Source: Natronospirillum sp.
Lineage (GTDB): Bacteria; Pseudomonadota; Gammaproteobacteria; Pseudomonadales; Natronospirillaceae
Assembly: GCF_022565775.1 (NCBI RefSeq)
Contig: NZ_JAIUMC010000002.1
Coordinates: 62,001 to 126,000, forward strand
Direction: 5' to 3'
Length of the DNA stretch: 64,000 bases
The position numbers were made by a program, and so were the translations under genes. The first letter of the stretch is position 1. Each line of letters begins with the position of its first letter. This document shows, piece after piece, positions 26,813 to 40,498 of the stretch. Below the pieces are notes generated by a model. That model did not search any database. It was not told the origin of the DNA and saw nothing but the letters and a program-made list of their open reading frames with translations.

Positions 26813-27874
26813 TTAGAACTGAGCGGGATCGAAAGGCTTGACCATGGAGCCGGTGCCGCCACCATGCAACCAGTCGTGAAATTCATCAGCCAGCCTTTCA
26901 CCCGCCTGAATTGACCGTCTCCAGTAGGCGATGCGATCCGCATCGCTCATGCGCTGGAAATCCTGCCGATCCGGTATCTTGCCCTGCGGCAGTTTTTCGA
27001 TAAAGGCTGAAGTTGGCGTCAGCAACAACACATCCTGATAGTGTTCTGCTTTGACCCGGCGCCACTTGAGCCGCTTGTCAAACCAGCCTGGCTTGAGCTG
27101 GGGCGCAAAGTGGGGATACAGAATCAGGCCGTCCGGCGTGTCGAACGGCAGGTCAAAGTGGTAGTCGACCATGCCGCCATCTCGATAGAGCCCCGTTGAT
27201 GACCCCGGAATATCCCTGACGCCTGCCATGGCCACTGGAATGGCCGCACTGGCCAACAGGGCCGGGAACAGATTGTCATCATCGAGTTGACTGCCGGTGG
27301 TCCGGAAGTCGGGAAACCCCCTTACAGGCAGGGAGCCGGGGCGGCTTTGCACGATATGGCGGTCGAAATGCAGGCGCAGGGAGCGGCGCGTCACCGCATT
27401 GGTGCCGGCTACTAGCATGAACGCGGACAGTTGCTTCCAGTACGTCTCGTGGGTCGTAACCCCGGTACAGCGTGCAGTAATGATGTGCAGCAGGCGATTG
27501 GCCTGCGGCACATAGGCGTCGCCCAAAACCTGCTGCAGCATTTCAGCGCACTGGGCACTGACGGCTTCAGGCGTCATGCCGGGAGCGAACGACTGGTTTA
27601 GATAGTGCTGCTCCAGGCGCTGCAGGGCAGACTCCGGGTCCTCGGACGCATAGCAGGCCATGCGCCAGGCACCAATGGATGAGCCGGCCAGATGCACGGG
27701 CTGACTCATGGCGGGCAGCAGCTCGCGCGCAATCAAGCGGTCCAGGTGACTGAGCACAAACCATTTGGGACCACCGGAGGCGCCGAGTATCAGTCGCACG
27801 TCTTCGGGCCGGAAGTGATGCTCACGGATTCTCTGGTACGCTCGTTTGCCGGCCATGATCTGTAGAGCGTGCAT
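26813..27874 (-). CDS. Patatin-like phospholipase/acyl hydrolase
   Basis: A 353-residue protein with the patatin Ser-Asp dyad: the nucleophile elbow GSSIG (S66) and DGG (D232). The glycine-rich oxyanion loop GASGGPKW lies near residues 31-38. No signal peptide or membrane helix is visible, so it is probably cytosolic or peripheral. Such enzymes release fatty acids from lipids; the substrate here is unknown. It is 86 bases downstream of the SuhB-like gene on the same strand, so they may share a transcript. Confidence 0.85.
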   Translation of the reverse strand: MHALQIMAGKRAYQRIREHHFRPEDVRLILGASGGPKWFVLSHLDRLIARELLPAMSQPVHLAGSSIGAWRMACYASEDPESALQRLEQHYLNQSFAPGMTPEAVSAQCAEMLQQVLGDAYVPQANRLLHIITARCTGVTTHETYWKQLSAFMLVAGTNAVTRRSLRLHFDRHIVQSRPGSLPVRGFPDFRTTGSQLDDDNLFPALLASAAIPVAMAGVRDIPGSSTGLYRDGGMVDYHFDLPFDTPDGLILYPHFAPQLKPGWFDKRLKWRRVKAEHYQDVLLLTPTSAFIEKLPQGKIPDRQDFQRMSDADRIAYWRRSIQAGERLADEFHDWLHGGGTGSMVKPFDPAQF

Positions 27875-27960: not shown

Positions 27961-28719
27961 TCAGGCCTGACGCAGCAGGGTTATGGTGGCCTTGAACAGC
28001 TTCGGATTGGCGCACACGACTGATTTTGACCGACTGTCTAGCGGGGCGCCGCTGATATCTCCGGTTACCGCGCCCGCTTCTGTCGCCAGCAGCTGAGTTG
28101 CTGCATATTCCAGCGGGGGCAGATCATGATGCAGCGCCAGGTCCAACTGACCGGCGGCAGTGCGCACCAGGTCCAGCAGCGCGCAACCACTGACACGTAA
28201 TTCAGCGCCCGCAGTGAGCAGCCGACTGCAGGGTTCGGCACTGACCAGATCGGTCGCCATGAAAACACCGGACAGCTTGCTCTGATTGGCGGTGCGCACT
28301 CGGCGTCCGTTGATCTGCATGCCACGCCCTCGCGAGGCGATGACTTCCAGATTCATGAACGGGAAAACCAGTGTTAGATGCTCCATGCGCTGTTTCTGCC
28401 ATTGGCTGACCAGCACGCCGCATTCTCCGAGCCCGCGGCGGAAATTGGTTTCACCCAACAGTATGTCGGTTTGCCAGGACACATCTTCCTGCGGCTTTTC
28501 CGGTTCGTACCGACCTTCGCGGGTGCACTCCAGTGCCTGGTCAGGGTGGGATTTGCGCAGCGTGTTGTGAACACGGCGTGAGGCGCCCGGATAAAGCTGG
28601 GCCATGATGTCCTCTTGCGGACTTTCCTCGATCAAGCGCGACCAGTGTTCGCGGGTATAAACCAGTTTTTCGGCGGCAGCGTGAGCCGCCCTCAAAGCAA
28701 TTGTCAGCGTTGGGTGCAT
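27961..28719 (-). CDS. suhB: SuhB-like inositol-monophosphatase fold protein with lost catalytic residues
   Basis: A 252-residue protein recognisable as SuhB by MHPTLTIALRAA at the start, the RGRGMQINGRRVR block, the length and its place beside trmJ-cysE-iscR. The catalytic signature is degraded: E. coli DPLDGTTNF reads DILLGETNF here, WDFAAGELL reads LEYAATQLL, and the TNVD and TEESG metal-binding segments are not recognisable. It is very likely inactive as a phosphatase. E. coli SuhB also works with Nus factors in rRNA antitermination, a role that does not need catalysis. Start chosen by homology; an ATG at 28740 is possible. Confidence 0.8.
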   Translation of the reverse strand: MHPTLTIALRAAHAAAEKLVYTREHWSRLIEESPQEDIMAQLYPGASRRVHNTLRKSHPDQALECTREGRYEPEKPQEDVSWQTDILLGETNFRRGLGECGVLVSQWQKQRMEHLTLVFPFMNLEVIASRGRGMQINGRRVRTANQSKLSGVFMATDLVSAEPCSRLLTAGAELRVSGCALLDLVRTAAGQLDLALHHDLPPLEYAATQLLATEAGAVTGDISGAPLDSRSKSVVCANPKLFKATITLLRQA

Positions 28720-28851
28720 AGCAGCGAAGGGCCTGAGCATGTTAAAAAGCTGTTTCAGGCGCGGGATTCTAGCAGAATCTGGCGCCCGTGCATCCCCGAG
28801 ACTGTGTTAATCTTGGCATTTTCCACACTGTTCTATTGTCTGGAGGCGACA

Positions 28852-29670
28852 TTGTCGGACCCTGCCCTTCCCGAAGACACGCTGGTGACGGCTTCTGTAT
28901 TGCAGCGCATCAAAATCGTGATGGTCGAGACCTCGCTGGCGGCCAATCTCGGTGCTGCAGCCCGGGCCATGAAAACCATGGGCTTGGCGCAATTGGTGGC
29001 GGTCAGTCCGCGTGAACCTCTTGACAACGAAAGCGCCATTGCACGCGCCTCGGGGGCGCAGGAGCTGCTGCTGAATGCCGTTTGTTGCGACTCGCTGGAT
29101 GAGGCGCTGCAGGGGTGCTCACTGGTCATAGGGACCAGTGCACGCAGCCGCAATTTGCCCTGGCCCATGCTTTCGCCGGTTGAGCTTCCACCAATCGTAC
29201 AGGGTGTGCCGGAGCCCGGCGAGATCGCGATACTATTCGGGCGGGAACGCAGTGGCCTCACCAACGAAGAGCTGGCCCGCTGTCATTATCATCTGCACAT
29301 TCCGTCGAATCCGGACTACAGCTCACTCAACATCGCGGCGGCCGTTCAGGTCGTGGCGTACGAACTGCGCCGGCAGTTGGTTGGCGGCGATTTGGACAAT
29401 GAACCGCACCCGTCTGTTCCGCTGGCCACCGCCGAAGATCTGGAAGGCTATTTCGACCATCTGCAGAGGGTGCTGGTTGATATCGGTTTTGCCGACCCCA
29501 ATAATTTGCGTCAGCTGATGCTGAAACTGCGCCGTTTTTATATGCGGGCACAGCCTGAGCCCGTGGAACTCAATATTCTGCGTGGCATCATAAGTCAGAC
29601 CGAAAAATCACTCATTCGAGCTCGCTCCGGACAGGACCGGGCGCCAGATCGCAGCCAGGACAGCCACTGA
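28852..29670 (+). CDS. trmJ: tRNA (cytidine/uridine-2'-O-)-methyltransferase TrmJ
   Basis: A 272-residue SPOUT methyltransferase that methylates the 2'-O of position 32 in tRNAs. Motifs seen are the N-terminal [22 protein letters not shown], the SAM-binding [12 protein letters not shown] and the C-terminal knot [17 protein letters not shown]. The frame is open upstream to 28615, but only the TTG at 28852 has a good GGAGG site and family alignment. It is divergent from suhB and overlaps the cysE ATG by one base. Confidence 0.93.
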
Positions 29671-30530
29671 TGTTCAAGACCATCCGCGAAGATATCAGCA
29701 GTGTATTTCACCGAGACCCTGCAGCGCGCAACAGCTTCGAGGTGCTCACCAATTATCCGGGTCTGCATGCGCTCATGTTCCATCGCCTGACTCACCGGCT
29801 GTGGAATCTGAAGCTAAAGTGGCTGGCTCGTTTCATTTCCACCATTGCACGCTGGCTGACCGGTATCGAGATCCATCCTGGCGCCCGCATCGGGCGGCGC
29901 TTCTTTATTGACCACGGTATGGGTGTGGTGATTGGTGAAACTGCGGAAGTTGGCGATGACGTGACCATCTACCATGGCGTGACACTGGGCGGTACCTCCT
30001 GGAAAGACGGCAAGCGCCATCCGACTCTGGGCAATGGCGTGGTGGTGGGTGCCGGTGCCAAGGTGCTCGGGCCCTTTACCGTGGGAGAGGGTGCCCGAAT
30101 CGGTTCCAATGCGGTGGTTACCAAGGAGGTCCCGGCGGGTGCCACTGTGGTCGGGGTTCCGGGGCGGGTCATTCGGCAACGCGTTGCCGGCAATGCAGAA
30201 GAAGAGTCGCGGCGGGCGGAGCTGGCGGAGAAGCTTGGCTTCGATGCCTATGGCGTTTCAGATATGCCAGACCCTATAGCCCACTCCATCAAAAGCCTGC
30301 TCGACCACATGCATGCGGTTGATGAGCGGGTAGACAGCATGTGCCGCACCCTGAACAGACTGGACTCAGGGTTCAAAAGTGGCCAATTGCCGCCGCTGGA
30401 CGATGATGATTTTTCCGTGGTCTCGGATGCCGATCGAGCCTGTGGTGGCATCAATTCCGAGCTGGATACCCGTCATCAGGAACCGGCGGAGAAACCGGAA
30501 AATCCTGAACCTCCGCATAAGGACCCTTGA
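29670..30530 (+). CDS. cysE: Serine O-acetyltransferase CysE
   Basis: A 286-residue enzyme making O-acetylserine, the precursor of cysteine. An alpha-helical N-terminus is followed by left-handed beta-helix hexapeptide repeats, with [30 protein letters not shown] and [19 protein letters not shown] diagnostic. It is the shorter, EpsC/NifP-type form. The last 100 residues are an extra, acidic and proline-rich tail. It lies directly upstream of regulatory and Fe-S genes that need cysteine sulfur. Confidence 0.95.
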
Positions 30531-30697: not shown

Positions 30698-31114
30698 GTG
30701 ACAACTTCAAACCACGCCGTCAAAGCCAGGGAAGCCTGTCTGACTCATCCCATCAGTGCCAACCTGACAGCCCGTCAGCGCTTCGTTCTGCGGGGGCTTA
30801 TTGCCGGGCACAGCAATCTTGAAATGGCTGAGCAGCTTTGCCTGACGGAGTACACCATCAAATACCACTGCCGGGCTCTTTACCAGCACTTCGGTGTGGC
30901 CAATCGAGTCGAGTTGGTCAGCGAACTGTTGCGCCGTTTCGGCAGCGATCTGCTGGCCTTCGCTCAGACCGAGGAACAGGGGCAGTCCCGTTCGACCAGG
31001 GCCTCCTGCAACAGGGTGCGGTCGGTCGCTGATCGACGTCCTCGGGGTTATGCGCGGCCATCCCAGCCTCGAGGCTTCACTGCGCACAGCCAATACCTCG
31101 GACAGCGCCTCTGA
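30698..31114 (+). CDS. Stand-alone LuxR-type helix-turn-helix regulator
   Basis: A 138-residue protein with a single LuxR-type DNA-binding domain (about 20-82): LTARQRFVLRGLIAGHSNLEMAEQL, then TIKYHCRALYQHFGVANRVEL. No receiver or autoinducer domain is present, as in GerE-like regulators. A GTG start is supported by a strong AAAGGAGG site. The last 50 residues are Arg/Ser/Pro-rich and unlike a folded domain; they may be a species-specific tail or the product of a shifted end. Target genes are unknown. Confidence 0.75.
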   Translation: MTTSNHAVKAREACLTHPISANLTARQRFVLRGLIAGHSNLEMAEQLCLTEYTIKYHCRALYQHFGVANRVELVSELLRRFGSDLLAFAQTEEQGQSRSTRASCNRVRSVADRRPRGYARPSQPRGFTAHSQYLGQRL

Positions 31115-33994: not shown

Positions 33995-34474
33995 ATGCGT
34001 TTGACCACCAAAGGCCGCTATGCGGTCACTGCCATGCTCGATCTGGCTTTGCACGAAGCTCAGGGTCCGATCAGCCTGGCGGATATTTCGGTTCGTCAGG
34101 GTATTTCGTTGTCATACCTTGAGCAACTGTTCTCGAGGCTAAGACGAGACCAACTGGTCAAGAGTGTGCGTGGCCCGGGCGGCGGTTACCAGTTGGCCAG
34201 GCCGGCTGCGGAGATCTCTGTAGCGAGCGTGGTCGATGCCGTCAGCGAATCAATGGATGCCACACGCTGCCAGGGCAAGGGCGACTGCCAGGGTGGTGAT
34301 ATCTGCCTGACCCACCATCTTTGGGAAGACCTGAGTGGGCAAATTCATCAGTTTCTCAGCGATATCAGTCTGGGCGACCTGGTGGCGCGTAAGGACATCC
34401 AGTCCGTGCGTCAGCGCCAGGATGAATACCAGTGGCATCAGGACAACCAGATTGAACTGAGTCGGATCAACTGA
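33995..34474 (+). CDS. iscR: Fe-S cluster-sensing transcription factor IscR
   Basis: A 159-residue Rrf2-family regulator with an N-terminal winged helix and the cluster ligands C92, C98, C104 and H107, at the same numbers as in E. coli Isc[19 protein letters not shown] and [12 protein letters not shown] are diagnostic. With a [2Fe-2S] cluster it should repress its own promoter. It heads an operon that continues with iscS and the suf genes, so it controls a SUF-type machine. Confidence 0.97.
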
Positions 34475-34514
34475 GCCGGCAATGATGACAGGTGGCAGAG
34501 GTCAAACAGCGGTC

Positions 34515-35666
34515 ATGCGCAAGCCCGTGTATCTCGATTATGCAGCAACCACGCCGGTTGATCCGGCTGTAGCCGAGCGCATGGCCGAGTGTCTGACGCT
34601 TGAAGGGCGGTTTGCCAACCCTGCGTCCCGCTCGCACCTTTACGGCTGGCAGGCAGAAGAAGCGGTCGAACTGGCCCGTCTGCAGGTGGCAGAGCTGATC
34701 AATGCCGAAGGTCGCGAACTGGTCTGGACCAGCGGCGCGACCGAGTCGGACAACTTGGCGCTGAAAGGCATGATGCAAGCCTCCGGCAGCGGCCATCTGG
34801 TGGTATCGGCGATTGAACACAAGGCCGTGCTGGATGCGGCAGATTGGCTGGAGAAGCAGGGTTATGCGGTGACCCGGCTGACGCCTGACAGTACTGGTCA
34901 GATCAGCGTTGATTCCGTGGCTGCAGCGCTGCGGGACGACACCCGTCTGGTCAGCATCATGCAGGTCAACAACGAGGTCGGCACGCTCAATGATGTGGCG
35001 GCCATCGGTGCTCTGTGTCGTGACCGAGGCGTGGCATTTCATGTGGATGCCGTCCAGGCCGCGGGCAGAGTCGCCATTGATGTGCAGGCGATGAACATTG
35101 ATCTGTTGTCACTGTCCGCGCACAAGATGTATGGCCCCAAAGGCATCGGGGTGCTCTATGTGCGTCGTGGTCTGTCTCCGCGCCCGGCCGCGCAGATCCA
35201 TGGCGGTGGCCATGAGCAGGGTTTGCGCTCCGGTACCCTGGCGACCCATCAGTGTGTGGGCATGGGAGCGGCTGCCGAGTTGGCGCGACAGCGCCTGGTC
35301 AACGAGCCGGCTGCGATAGCGGCCCTGCGGGACCGGCTCTGGGACGGTATTCGTGATCTGCCCGGTGTGCGCCTGAATGGTCATCCTGAATACAGGTCCT
35401 GCAGTCATCTGAATGTGGGTTTTGCCGGGCAGGATGGTGAGACTCTGCTGATGGCCCTGAGGGAACTGGCAGTATCAACCGGTTCTGCCTGTACCTCGGC
35501 CACGTTGGAACCGAGTTTCGTGCTGCGTGCCATGGGTGTGCCTGATGCGCTGGCGCATTCATCCCTGCGCTTCAGTCTGGGGCGGTTTACCACTGAAGAA
35601 GAAATTGATCACGCCATCGGACATGTCTGTCAGGTGGTGACGAGTCTGAGTCAAGCGACAGCCTGA
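34515..35666 (+). CDS. iscS: Cysteine desulfurase IscS, short C-terminus
   Basis: A 383-residue PLP enzyme taking sulfur from cysteine. It begins [17 protein letters not shown], has the PLP lysine in [11 protein letters not shown] (K204) and the catalytic cysteine in STGSACTSA (C326). E. coli IscS has 404 residues and ends in a tail that docks IscU; here the protein stops about 20 residues earlier. iscU, hscAB and fdx are absent and sufB follows. Start chosen by homology; an in-frame ATG at 34482 is possible. Confidence 0.93.
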
Positions 35667-35688
35667 GCGCTGTCAGAGTGAGGAAAAC

Positions 35689-37125
35689 ATGTCCGAACAG
35701 GTCGACAATCTGATCAGGAAAGAATATGCCGCGGGCTTCCATACCCTGATCGACGCGGATACATTGCCACCGGGTCTCAACGAAGACGTGGTGCGCTTCA
35801 TCTCGGCCAAGAAGGGCGAGCCGGACTGGATGACGGAATGGCGTTTGAAAGCCTACCGGGCCTGGACAGAGATGGCAGAACCCGACTGGGCCAAGGTCAA
35901 GTATCCGCCGATAGATTTCCAGAAGATCTCCTACTACTCGGCGCCCAAGAGCATGGATGACAAGCCCCAGAGTCTGGACGAGGTTGATCCGGAGCTGTTG
36001 GCCACTTATGAAAAGCTCGGCATCCCCTTGCACGAACAGGAAATGCTGGCTGGCGTCGCGGTCGATGCGGTGTTCGATTCTGTCTCGGTGGTGACTACCT
36101 TCCGCAAGAAACTGTGGGAAGCCGGAGTGATCTTCTGTCCGATCAGTGAAGCGGTGCACGACTACCCGGAACTGGTGAAAAAGTATCTGGGCTCGGTCGT
36201 CCCGCAGAAAGACAACTATTTCGCGGCCCTGAACTCGGCAGTCTTTTCGGATGGTTCCTTCGTCTACATTCCCAAAGGCGTGCGGTGCCCGATGGAATTG
36301 TCGACTTATTTCCGCATCAACGAGATGAACACCGGCCAGTTCGAGCGCACCTTGATTGTGGCCGAAGAGGGCAGCCACGTCAGCTATCTGGAAGGCTGTA
36401 CCGCACCCATGCGGGATGAAAATCAGCTGCATGCCGCCGTTGTTGAACTGGTTGCGCTGGACAATGCCGAGATCAAGTATTCAACCGTGCAGAACTGGTA
36501 TCCCGGCGATGCCGAAGGCAAAGGCGGGATCTACAACTTTGTGACCAAGCGTGGCATCTGCCATACCAACGCCAAGATATCCTGGACCCAGGTAGAGACC
36601 GGCTCTGCCGTCACCTGGAAATACCCGAGCTGCATTCTGAAGGGTGATAACAGTGTCGGCGAGTTCTACTCGGTGGCACTGACCAACAACTACCAGCAGG
36701 CAGACACCGGCACCAAGATGATCCATCTGGGCAAGAACACCCGCTCGACGATCATTGCCAAGGGTATTTCCGCCGGCAAGAGCGACAGCTCTTATCGTGG
36801 TCTTGTGCGCATCAACGCAGGGGCTGAAGGCGCCCGCAACTTCACCCAGTGTGATTCACTGCTGATTGGCGACCAGTGTGGCGCCCATACTTTCCCTTAT
36901 ATCGAAAGCCGCAACCCATCGGCCATTGTCGAGCACGAGGCAACAACATCCCGGGTCAGTGATGACCAGATGTTCCTCTGCCAGCAACGGGGTCTGGATG
37001 CGGAAAAAGCGGTCTCGATGATCGTGAACGGTTTCTGTCGAGAAGTATTCCGGGAGCTGCCGATGGAGTTTGCTGTCGAGGCTGGCAAATTGCTGGAAGT
37101 GAGCCTTGAGGGCAGCGTCGGCTGA
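35689..37125 (+). CDS. sufB: Fe-S cluster scaffold subunit SufB
   Basis: A 478-residue member of the SufBCD scaffold on which [4Fe-4S] clusters form. Blocks such as [36 protein letters not shown] and [20 protein letters not shown] are diagnostic of SufB rather than SufD. A GTGAGGAAAAC ribosome site precedes the ATG, 22 bases after iscS. It is the first SUF gene of the hybrid operon. Confidence 0.97.
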
Positions 37126-37160
37126 TCCTGATCAAGAATTGTATTACTGGAATAGAGTTT

Positions 37161-37910
<750 letters not shown>

Positions 37911-37913
37911 GTC

Positions 37914-39239
37914 ATGAGCGAATTTCAGCAACAGGCCCTGGAGTTGGCCCGACAGCAGCAGGCGCCCGACTGGCTAGCGCCGCTGCGCACCTCGGGTGCC
38001 GATCAGTGGGCACAAGCAGCCTGGCCAACGCGGCGCACGGAACAGTGGAAATATACGCCACTGATTCCGCTGCAGAAGACTTGGTTCAACCGCTGGGGCG
38101 AGCCTGATCTGGCGCAGGCCGGCAGTATCGACTGGATAGATCCGGAGGCCAGTCGCCTGGTCTTCGTCAATGGTCGCTTTGCTGCAGACCTGTCGTCGAA
38201 TGACCTGCCGGCAGAAGTGGTTCGCTTTGCCGAAGCGGGTCCCGAGCAACGGGCCCTGATCGAGCAGCATCTTGGACAGGTCGTGGACAGTGAGCGGCAT
38301 CTGTTTGCAGCCTTGAGCAATGCCTGGACAGATGATGGCGTGCTGCTGCATGTGCCGGCTGGGCAGCAGCTCTCCGGGCCCTTGTATGTGGTGCATGTGT
38401 CAACGCCGGAAGCCGAGCCGACGCCGGCTGGCCAACGCCTGCTGATTGTGCTGGACAGCGGCGCGCAAGCCAGCGTTGTCGAGCACTTTGCCTCGACGGC
38501 CGACAGCCAAAGCGGCTTCGTGAACAGCCTGACTGAAGTGGTGGTGGGCGATAATGCCCGTTTCCGGCACTGCCGTGTGCACCTGGAGCAGGAAGACCTG
38601 ATTCATGTCGGTGGCGTGCACGTCAATCTGGGGCGGGCTTCGCACATGAACGGCTTTACCCTGGCGCAGGGCAGCCGACTGAAGCGTATCGACTATCAGA
38701 TCAATCATCGGGGTGAAGGTGCCGAACTGGTGCTCAATGGCATCTACCTGCCGCGCAACCGGCAACTGGTCGACTACCACACCAATGTCGAGCACTGTGT
38801 GCCGCACTGCACCACCAGCGAAACCTTCCGTGGCATCATTGGCGATTCGTCCCGGGCTGTCTTCAACGGTCGCATCCATATTCACCCGGATGCCCAGAAG
38901 ACGTTGGCGGAACTCAGCAACAAGAACCTGCTGACCTCGGATCGGGCCGAAGTGGACACCAAACCGGAACTGGAAATCTATGCCGATGATGTGCGCTGTG
39001 CGCACGGTGCCACAGTCAGTCAGCTTGATCCAACGGCGCTCTACTATCTGCAGAGCCGGGGCATTTCCCGACTGGAAGCGGAAGTCATGCTCAGTTTCGG
39101 TTTTATCAACGAATTGCTGCGCGAGGCGCCGGAGCCCGCGCTGCAGGCCTGGTTGCGTCGTCATCTGAATGTGCTGCTGGGTCGCCCGGAACAACTGACG
39201 CGGCATCTGGACACCGGCATCGAGGATTCTCTGTCATGA
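37914..39239 (+). CDS. sufD: Fe-S cluster scaffold subunit SufD
   Basis: A 441-residue SufB paralogue that pairs with SufB in the SufBC2D complex. The N-terminal part contains RRTEQWKYTPL, the core a right-handed beta-helix, and the C-terminal DDVRCAHGATVSQLDPTAL block with the conserved Cys and His. Its stop overlaps the sufS start by 4 bases. Confidence 0.95.
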   Translation: MSEFQQQALELARQQQAPDWLAPLRTSGADQWAQAAWPTRRTEQWKYTPLIPLQKTWFNRWGEPDLAQAGSIDWIDPEASRLVFVNGRFAADLSSNDLPAEVVRFAEAGPEQRALIEQHLGQVVDSERHLFAALSNAWTDDGVLLHVPAGQQLSGPLYVVHVSTPEAEPTPAGQRLLIVLDSGAQASVVEHFASTADSQSGFVNSLTEVVVGDNARFRHCRVHLEQEDLIHVGGVHVNLGRASHMNGFTLAQGSRLKRIDYQINHRGEGAELVLNGIYLPRNRQLVDYHTNVEHCVPHCTTSETFRGIIGDSSRAVFNGRIHIHPDAQKTLAELSNKNLLTSDRAEVDTKPELEIYADDVRCAHGATVSQLDPTALYYLQSRGISRLEAEVMLSFGFINELLREAPEPALQAWLRRHLNVLLGRPEQLTRHLDTGIEDSLS

Positions 39240-40498
39240 CCCAGGCAGCCACTCGAGACACAGCCGCTGCGCCGAACAAGGCGCCATTCGATGTCGAGAA
39301 GGTGCGGCTGGACTTCCCCATTCTGCAACAGCAGGTGCACGGGCAGCCTCTGGTCTATCTTGATAACGCCGCCACCACGCAGAAGCCGCGGGCGGTGATT
39401 CAGGCACTGGTGGACTATTATGAAGGCTACAACAGCAATGTGCATCGTGCCGCGCATGCGCTGAGTGACCGGGCGACGCAGGCGTTTGAAGGCGCCCGCG
39501 ACAAGGTCGGCCGGTTCCTGCAGGTGGCCGACCGCCGGGAGATCATCTGGACCAGTGGTGTCACCGAGGGCATCAACCTGGTGGCGCAAAGCTGGGGCCG
39601 GCAGAATCTCCGCGCTGGCGACCGGGTACTGGTGTCTGCCATGGAGCATCACTCCAATATCGTGCCCTGGCAGATGGTAGCCGAACCTCTGGGCGCCACA
39701 GTGGAGCCCATTCCGGTCGACGAAACCGGTACCCTTGACCTCGAAGCCTTCCATGCCATGCTGGATGATCGGGTACGCATGGTGTCGGTTGGCCATGTAT
39801 CCAATGCGCTGGGCTCGGTCAATCCGGTAGCAGAGATCATTGAAGCCGCCCACCGAGTCGGCGCGCTGACACTGATCGACGGCGCTCAGGCCGTGGGACA
39901 TTTTCCGGTTGACGTGCAGACACTGGGCTGTGACTTCTACGCCGTGTCGGCGCACAAGTTGTTCGGCCCTACCGGCATCGGTGCCCTTTACGGACGCCTG
40001 AGCCTGCTGGAAAGCATGACACCCTGGCAAGGCGGCGGAGAAATGATCGAGACCGTGAGTTTTGCCGGGACTACCTACGGCGGTGTGCCGCACAAGTTCG
40101 AAGCCGGTACGCCCAATATTGCCGATGCCATCGCCTTCGGTGCGGCGATCGACTATCTGAATGCGCTGGATCGTGCCGGCGCGCAACGCCACGAAGATGA
40201 GCTGCTGGCCTATGCCGAGCAGCGCGCTGCAGGCACGGAAGGGCTGCGCCTGGTGGGCACCGCGATCGACAAAACCGGCGTCATGAGTTTTCTGGTTGAG
40301 GGTACGCATCCTGCAGACCTGGGTTTCCTGCTGGATCAGCAGGGTGTAGCCGTGCGCACTGGCCATCACTGTGCCCAGCCGATCATGGATCAGTTTGGCA
40401 TTCCGGGGACGGTAAGGGCCAGTCTGGCCTTCTACAATACCCGGGATGATATAGATCGCCTGTTCGCGGCCCTGGACAAGGCCCGGCAGTTGTTTTGA
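39236..40498 (+). CDS. sufS: Cysteine desulfurase SufS
   Basis: A 420-residue class-II cysteine desulfurase supplying sulfur to SufE and SufBCD. The PLP lysine is in VSAHKLFGPTGIG (K241) and the active-site cysteine in RTGHHCAQPIM (C379). It is the second desulfurase in this operon besides iscS. The first 20 residues are an Ala/Thr-rich extension. Confidence 0.96.
   Translation: MTQAATRDTAAAPNKAPFDVEKVRLDFPILQQQVHGQPLVYLDNAATTQKPRAVIQALVDYYEGYNSNVHRAAHALSDRATQAFEGARDKVGRFLQVADRREIIWTSGVTEGINLVAQSWGRQNLRAGDRVLVSAMEHHSNIVPWQMVAEPLGATVEPIPVDETGTLDLEAFHAMLDDRVRMVSVGHVSNALGSVNPVAEIIEAAHRVGALTLIDGAQAVGHFPVDVQTLGCDFYAVSAHKLFGPTGIGALYGRLSLLESMTPWQGGGEMIETVSFAGTTYGGVPHKFEAGTPNIADAIAFGAAIDYLNALDRAGAQRHEDELLAYAEQRAAGTEGLRLVGTAIDKTGVMSFLVEGTHPADLGFLLDQQGVAVRTGHHCAQPIMDQFGIPGTVRASLAFYNTRDDIDRLFAALDKARQLF

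Follow-up and report, generated by a model that had tools for sequence, protein, structure and literature searches.

The window, here the whole 64,000-nucleotide stretch of Natronospirillum sp. DNA that was analysed, carries a suhB orthologue encoding a protein without the phosphatase active site, a divergent trmJ for a SpoU-type RNA methyltransferase, and a cysE-like serine acetyltransferase gene (Table 1). The suhB open reading frame spans 27961-28740 on the minus strand, with the ATG at 28719 taken as the start from the homologues. The earlier sequence-only reading had placed suhB next to trmJ, cysE and iscR; trmJ and cysE are indeed adjacent, but iscR lies further on, beyond three other genes, of which one is LuxR-type, one UPF0176/rhodanese and one on the opposite strand. 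As a further feature of the region, the genes headed by iscR read as a SUF-type iron-sulphur operon under an IscR-type regulator. The suhB frame is also intact in relatives with 70% and 55% identity, so an assembly error does not account for it; a frameshift or assembly error as the cause of the active-site loss was rejected, as the relatives have the same loss. The closest relative compared was Natronospirillum operosum G-116, of the same genus, with a SuhB 70% identical to that of the window.

Table 1. Features of the suhB region, in window positions.
Feature	Position	Strand	Remark
Patatin-like phospholipase gene	26813-27874	-	Between secF and suhB
suhB orthologue	27961..28719	-	252 aa, stop codon included in coordinates; phosphatase active site lost
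suhB codon 243 (K)	27991..27993	-	Equivalent of K251, NusA-AR2 contact in E. coli; kept
suhB codon 204 (E)	28108..28110	-	Replaces metal ligand D212; from alignments
suhB codons 85-90 (D I L L G E)	28450..28467	-	Replace D84-P-L-D87-G-T89 signature; from alignments
suhB codons 66-67 (T, R)	28519..28524	-	Replace metal ligand E67 and E68; from alignments
trmJ (SpoU-type RNA methyltransferase)	28852..29670	+	Divergent neighbour marking orthology; TTG start inferred
cysE-like serine acetyltransferase gene (hexapeptide repeat)	29670..30530	+	Directly after trmJ
Gene for small LuxR-type HTH protein	30698-31114	+	138 aa; HTH is its sole Pfam domain; between cysE and UPF0176/rhodanese gene
iscR	33995-34474		3.5 kb further on from cysE; name from translation
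iscR, nifS-like gene, then sufB, sufC, sufD, sufS	33995-40498		Names from translations

The window protein matches the Pfam family Inositol_P (PF00459) over residues 4-249 (E 5e-17), and its AlphaFold model (pLDDT 94.4, pTM 0.90) has as top Foldseek match the E. coli SuhB structure 2qfl (TM 0.90), with 6tqn, the rrn antitermination complex, and 6ib8, SuhB with NusA AR2, also among the high-ranking matches. The closest PDB sequence matches are SuhB proteins as well. The NCBIfam equivalog PRK10757 (cut-off 332 bits) was not reached by the window protein (100.6 bits), and an intact SuhB relative from the same order likewise stays under it with 321.6 bits; the gene was assigned to SuhB by descent and not by this model. 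By its fold, its N-terminus and its trmJ neighbourhood the window protein is to be read as the true SuhB of its lineage, and the earlier identification of a SuhB homologue with a full-length frame is borne out by the Pfam match, the fold, trmJ and the length of the chain. Proteins of this kind belong to the Inositol_P family and are easily mislabelled as inositol monophosphatases in annotation.

Like its E. coli orthologue (2qfl, 6ib7, 6ib8, 6tqn), with which it shares the fold, the window SuhB has the N-terminal MHPxLxIAxRAA and the C-terminal K251 contact for NusA AR2; the trmJ neighbourhood is presumably common to E. coli suhB too. Unlike it, E. coli SuhB is an active inositol monophosphatase (IMPase) besides being a Nus factor, and the window chain is shorter (252 vs 267 aa). 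The SuhB of Pseudomonas aeruginosa (8wip, 8wdq, 9j90), which we take to be of the same order as the window organism in the GTDB sense, has the same fold but an intact motif in the aligned residues, and according to their titles its structures contain inositol-1-phosphate or gallic acid. Fold and sequence family PF00459 are also shared with the IMPases human IMPA1 and Mycobacterium tuberculosis SuhB, whose defining motifs GEE, DPxDGT and WDxA are not found in the window protein.

Residue numbers follow E. coli SuhB (2qfl), the reference in the alignments, in which the columns are anchored by W81 (64/64) and N91 (58/64) of the inactive sequences described below and, for the window protein, by the AlphaFold/Foldseek model. 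Relative to E. coli SuhB, TEESG is changed to CTREG (E67 to T, E68 to R), DPLDGTTN to DILLGETN (D84 kept, D87 to L, T89 to E) and WDFAAG to LEYAAT (W211 to L, D212 to E), and K34 and D44 are replaced by P and Y. The metal ligands E67, D84, D87 and D212 thus read T, D, L and E, with three of the four side chains replaced, and the DPxDGT and WDxA motifs are absent from the window SuhB, which has DILLGE and LEYA instead. The alignment to 2qfl agrees with the two changes first noticed, DPLDG to DILLG and WDFAAG to LEYAAT; the further statement that the other acidic segments are gone is right as well, except that D84 is still there and position 212 has a Glu. In M. tuberculosis SuhB the metals are held by Glu83, Asp104, Asp107 and Asp235, and mutating those sites strongly reduces activity (PMC2080633); this numbering was mapped here to that of E. 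coli by motif. The window SuhB is thus predicted to be unable to hydrolyse inositol phosphates.

A PF00459 profile search of the genome, a 91%-complete draft, found three genes, the window suhB and two of CysQ type whose proteins exceed the NCBIfam CysQ cut-off. These belong to the same superfamily but, unlike the window SuhB, have intact catalytic motifs (DPLDGTKEF/DPLDGTREF). The second intact SuhB for which the sequence-only reading had proposed a search was not found among these matches, in a draft in which a SuhB gene may have been missed. In N. operosum, an IMPase-like paralogue with one in-frame TAA (G001:C1:381707-382375) lies near an intact paralogue at 390391.

The survey of the order comprised 137 readable SuhB sequences, five paralogous phosphatases (L138, L225, L227, L168, L169) and the truncated L163 being left out of the count. 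All four ligands are present in 65 of them and three in one, and two or more are missing in 71; as the survey is not random, having been enriched in genomes without an intact DPxDGTxN[FY] motif (43/390 genomes) and in their families, 71/137 is not a frequency. Within f1, the family to which the window organism belongs, two or more of the four ligands are missing from each of the 22 SuhB read, among them those of Natronospirillum operosum, Saccharospirillum impatiens, S. salsuginis, Reinekea blandensis, R. forsetii and a Gynuella MAG. Besides these 22, the inactive sequences come from f37 (17), f36 (11), f38 (10), f6 (2), f19 (1) and f26 (1), which gives 64 in seven families, and from f44 (2 of 3 read), f39 (4 of 14 read, all of genus g85) and f14 (1 of 1 read); Marinobacterium lacunae (L090) and Pseudohongiella nitratireducens (L064) also show ligand loss. 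The fetched locus contains trmJ in 70 of the 71 inactive cases (it is absent in L155), very divergent g85 included, which argues that these are orthologues and not another paralogue. The active-site loss, which the sequence-only reading had described for the window protein and missed as a property of the lineage, is, as judged from these sequences, common to the whole of f1 and to several other families of the order, and is old.

Two individual cases were also noted. In L140 (G335:C37:3013-3792), which comes from the otherwise intact family f28 and is counted in the intact group, D84 is changed to Ala and E68 is changed as well; here the active-site loss may perhaps be seen near its beginning. 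The SuhB of genus g85 (L164, L165, L166, L226) is highly diverged and has lost K251, with trmJ still adjacent.

Outside the order, 55 of the 58 proteins read are intact, in two sets that were picked by score and not at random. The first set held the 29 best-scoring loci, L281 among them from the order of the window, and 28 were intact, L281 included; the remaining L277 was unaligned and read as intact in the second set, which consisted of L277 and 30 weak scorers. There, 28 of the 31 are intact on all four columns, the exceptions being the degenerate L328, L324 with one column different near the cut start, and the incomplete L321; as no more than 20 of the 31 loci contain trmJ, this second set may include paralogues. 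L328 (G643:C106) is a degenerate SuhB-like protein of a 1.5-Mb genome, with T, D, N and K in the ligand columns and no trmJ in the locus.

The SuhB tree (125 rows; quick method) was made with the catalytic segments excluded from the alignment, and without near-duplicates and truncated or paralogous rows. In this tree, which contains several long branches, a large inactive clade (54 rows; SH-aLRT 99) unites the seven families with the one sequence from f14, and f44 and f39-g85 are placed away from it, so that 3 state changes are needed. An AU test with 61 rows did not reject a single inactive clade (p 0.238), and gave p 0.351 for the main clade plus f44. As f39 and f44 each hold intact and inactive SuhB, the simplest reading would be three losses of the active site, which depends partly on the family codes as assigned in the genome database. 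Another possible case of loss may be present in f7, where the sequence (G344) is interrupted by a contig end and was left uncounted.

Comparison of the 64 inactive sequences of the seven families with 66 intact SuhB shows which positions were given up and which were kept. K34, D44, E67, E68, D84, T89 and W211 are each present in at least 90% of the intact and in 0-19% of the inactive sequences; further positions as conserved in the intact group, R184 for one, drop as well. Of the metal ligands, E67 is kept in 12 of the 64, D84 in 11, D87 in 30 and D212 in 30; D44 is kept in none, T89 in one, K34 in 3% and W211 in 5%. On the other side, among the positions with this conservation in the intact group, P3, W81, G132, R141, E222 and G224 are kept in all 64 and R139 in 63. 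The ligands that remain bear on the possibility of a changed enzyme, in which the remaining acids (D or E at 84, E or D at 212 and a new acid at 89) would bind one or two metals and another substrate would be hydrolysed. The sequences of f37 agree with such a remodelling in keeping D87 in 17/17, E67 in 12/17 and a carboxylate at 212 in 14/17, as does D84 in 10 of the 22 f1 sequences, the window included. However, no ligand set is constant across the inactive clade, the replacement letters vary by family, D44, K34, T89 and W211 are nearly all lost, and 14 of the 17 f37 genomes are without any DPxDGTxN[FY] motif (weaker family matches exist there), a sign that these organisms can do without the reaction; a changed enzyme is thus considered unlikely.

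Pseudoenzymes often act as ligand sensors, and the retained overall fold would allow the dead pocket to bind an inositol- or sugar-phosphate and so to tune the rRNA transcription complex. Such a metabolite sensor is very unlikely, however, with pocket residues that vary by family and T89, at the phosphate site, lost in 63 of the 64 sequences.

Selection on the inactive proteins was estimated as dN/dS by Nei-Gojobori for within-family pairs with dS under 1, which are not independent of each other. The 37 inactive pairs range from 0.011 to 0.484 (median 0.20; 37/37 below 0.5), with low values such as 0.011 for L011/L012, 0.013 for L222/L223, 0.019 for L018/L020 and 0.032 for L159/L160, and 6 intact pairs range from 0.19 to 0.345 (median 0.25), two f8 paralogue pairs and L168/L169 being left out. 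The window and N. operosum sequences give 0.16 at a dS of 1.4, near saturation, and values reach 0.74 between f1 genera, at a dS of about 1.1. Inactive SuhB is under purifying selection, fast-changing over long times yet not decaying, the 37 pairs being the evidence, and the dN/dS across relatives that had been suggested as a check gave this answer. A decaying gene under relaxed selection, heading to a pseudogene, may be suspected from the long branches of the tree and the high values between f1 genera, but is hardly credible and already largely refuted by the lack of internal stops in any inactive SuhB sequence, the low dN/dS of all 37 pairs, the high-confidence fold and the retention beside trmJ across many families.

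As an orthologue of a Nus factor, the window SuhB may be compared with what is described for E. coli. There, SuhB binds an rRNA signal element and NusA AR2, suppresses termination and is needed for the stable integration of NusB/NusE (PMC6614801); the K251A/L254A change raises the Kd for NusA AR2 from 94 nM to 141 uM (over 1000-fold) and weakens antitermination (same paper). The SuhB dimer is a structural hub touching NusA, NusE and NusG (PMC10250234). At the K251 column the window protein has K243, and the equivalent is K in 62/64 inactive sequences of the seven families and in 64/71 of all inactive ones; at the L254 column it has I246, a conservative change, and the 64 sequences have L in 23 and V, I, M or F in 39, together 62/64. 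K251 is found in 0 of 12 paralogous intact phosphatases, and varies among the intact proteins outside the order, being K in 17/28 of the first set and 7/31 of the second. The equivalent of R184 is kept in 0 of the 64 inactive sequences, and the window protein has 23 residues in the region matching E. coli 152-183, which is 32 residues long in E. coli itself and 34 in the majority of intact relatives. With R184 lost and this stretch shortened, the dimer or the RNA polymerase (RNAP) contact must differ from that of E. coli, where, in work by Wang from 2007, SuhB with the change R184I reportedly neither binds RNAP nor complements.

The partners expected of such a factor are present. NusA has two TIGR01954 repeats above the cut-off in the own genome (G000:C69) and four relatives (5/5), and at least one acidic repeat above the cut-off in 30/30 further genomes. 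In g85 the acidic repeats of NusA score weakly, with one repeat in two genomes and the second under the cut-off in two, and two f39 genomes with an intact SuhB have a weak second repeat too. A loss of NusA AR2 in g85 was rejected, the NusA C-termini there retaining an AR2-like end (row G095 was disregarded in this comparison).

Sites were taken as boxA-like if they differed from E. coli boxA at no more than two positions, and the argument lies in the repeated position of these short matches. As the own assembly is without 16S, they were checked in relatives only: in three f1 relatives, 9 of 11 rRNA operons have a boxA-like site that precedes the 16S start mark by 181-229 bases (the leader match is missing in operons L242 and L246), and 11 of 11 have one after 16S. 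Several rRNA leaders also have a stretch, GTGTGGGC, that resembles what we take to be E. coli boxC.

Here it is proposed that the window SuhB is a natural pseudophosphatase that is probably (at roughly 80%) retained as a Nus factor. The collapse of the catalytic columns, the retention of K251 and the presence of NusA AR2 and of boxA-like sites fit retention for the antitermination role, and the same evidence supports the suggestion, made at the outset from the sequence, that a non-enzymatic function keeps the gene. Once catalysis had become dispensable, the pocket of the active site would have drifted and the binding surfaces would have stayed. As in E. coli, boxA RNA and NusA AR2 would bring SuhB into the rRNA transcription complex, where it would help NusB/NusE and S4 to join and, while rRNA is being made, would delay termination of both the Rho-dependent and the intrinsic kind. 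Counting against this reading are the loss of R184 in all 64 inactive sequences together with the shortened stretch before it, the replacement of L254 in 39 of the 64, the loss of K251 in the four g85 sequences, and the fast protein change between f1 genera. For the window protein itself, binding to NusA/RNAP and antitermination are predicted from its sequence.

Mutants of E. coli are the basis of the argument that phosphatase activity is not the main function of SuhB, and a natural, lineage-wide loss of the active site in a protein kept under selection is independent evolutionary evidence for it. With dispensability of the phosphatase in E. coli already known, the new part is this natural and lineage-wide loss. 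IMPase-defective E. coli mutants are without the growth defect of suhB loss (PMC4807359). In the titles and abstracts searched, with subscription journals mostly outside, no report was found of a natural SuhB without catalytic residues, and the available part of PMC5516325 does not mention one. The inactive SuhBs may serve as a set of natural separation-of-function proteins, in which the fixed P3, R139, R141 and K251 are candidates for residues that make contacts within the rRNA transcription complex.

A more far-reaching and rather doubtful proposal is that large parts of the order run rRNA antitermination with a non-enzyme SuhB, the activity having been lost perhaps at least three times, and that in some families the mouth of the former active site has become a new contact surface, with a wiring unlike that of E. 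coli. Examples are the G-E-x-N stretch present in 15 of the 22 f1 sequences and, in 11/11 sequences of f36, an R at the E67 column, an E at that of D84 and an H at that of D87.
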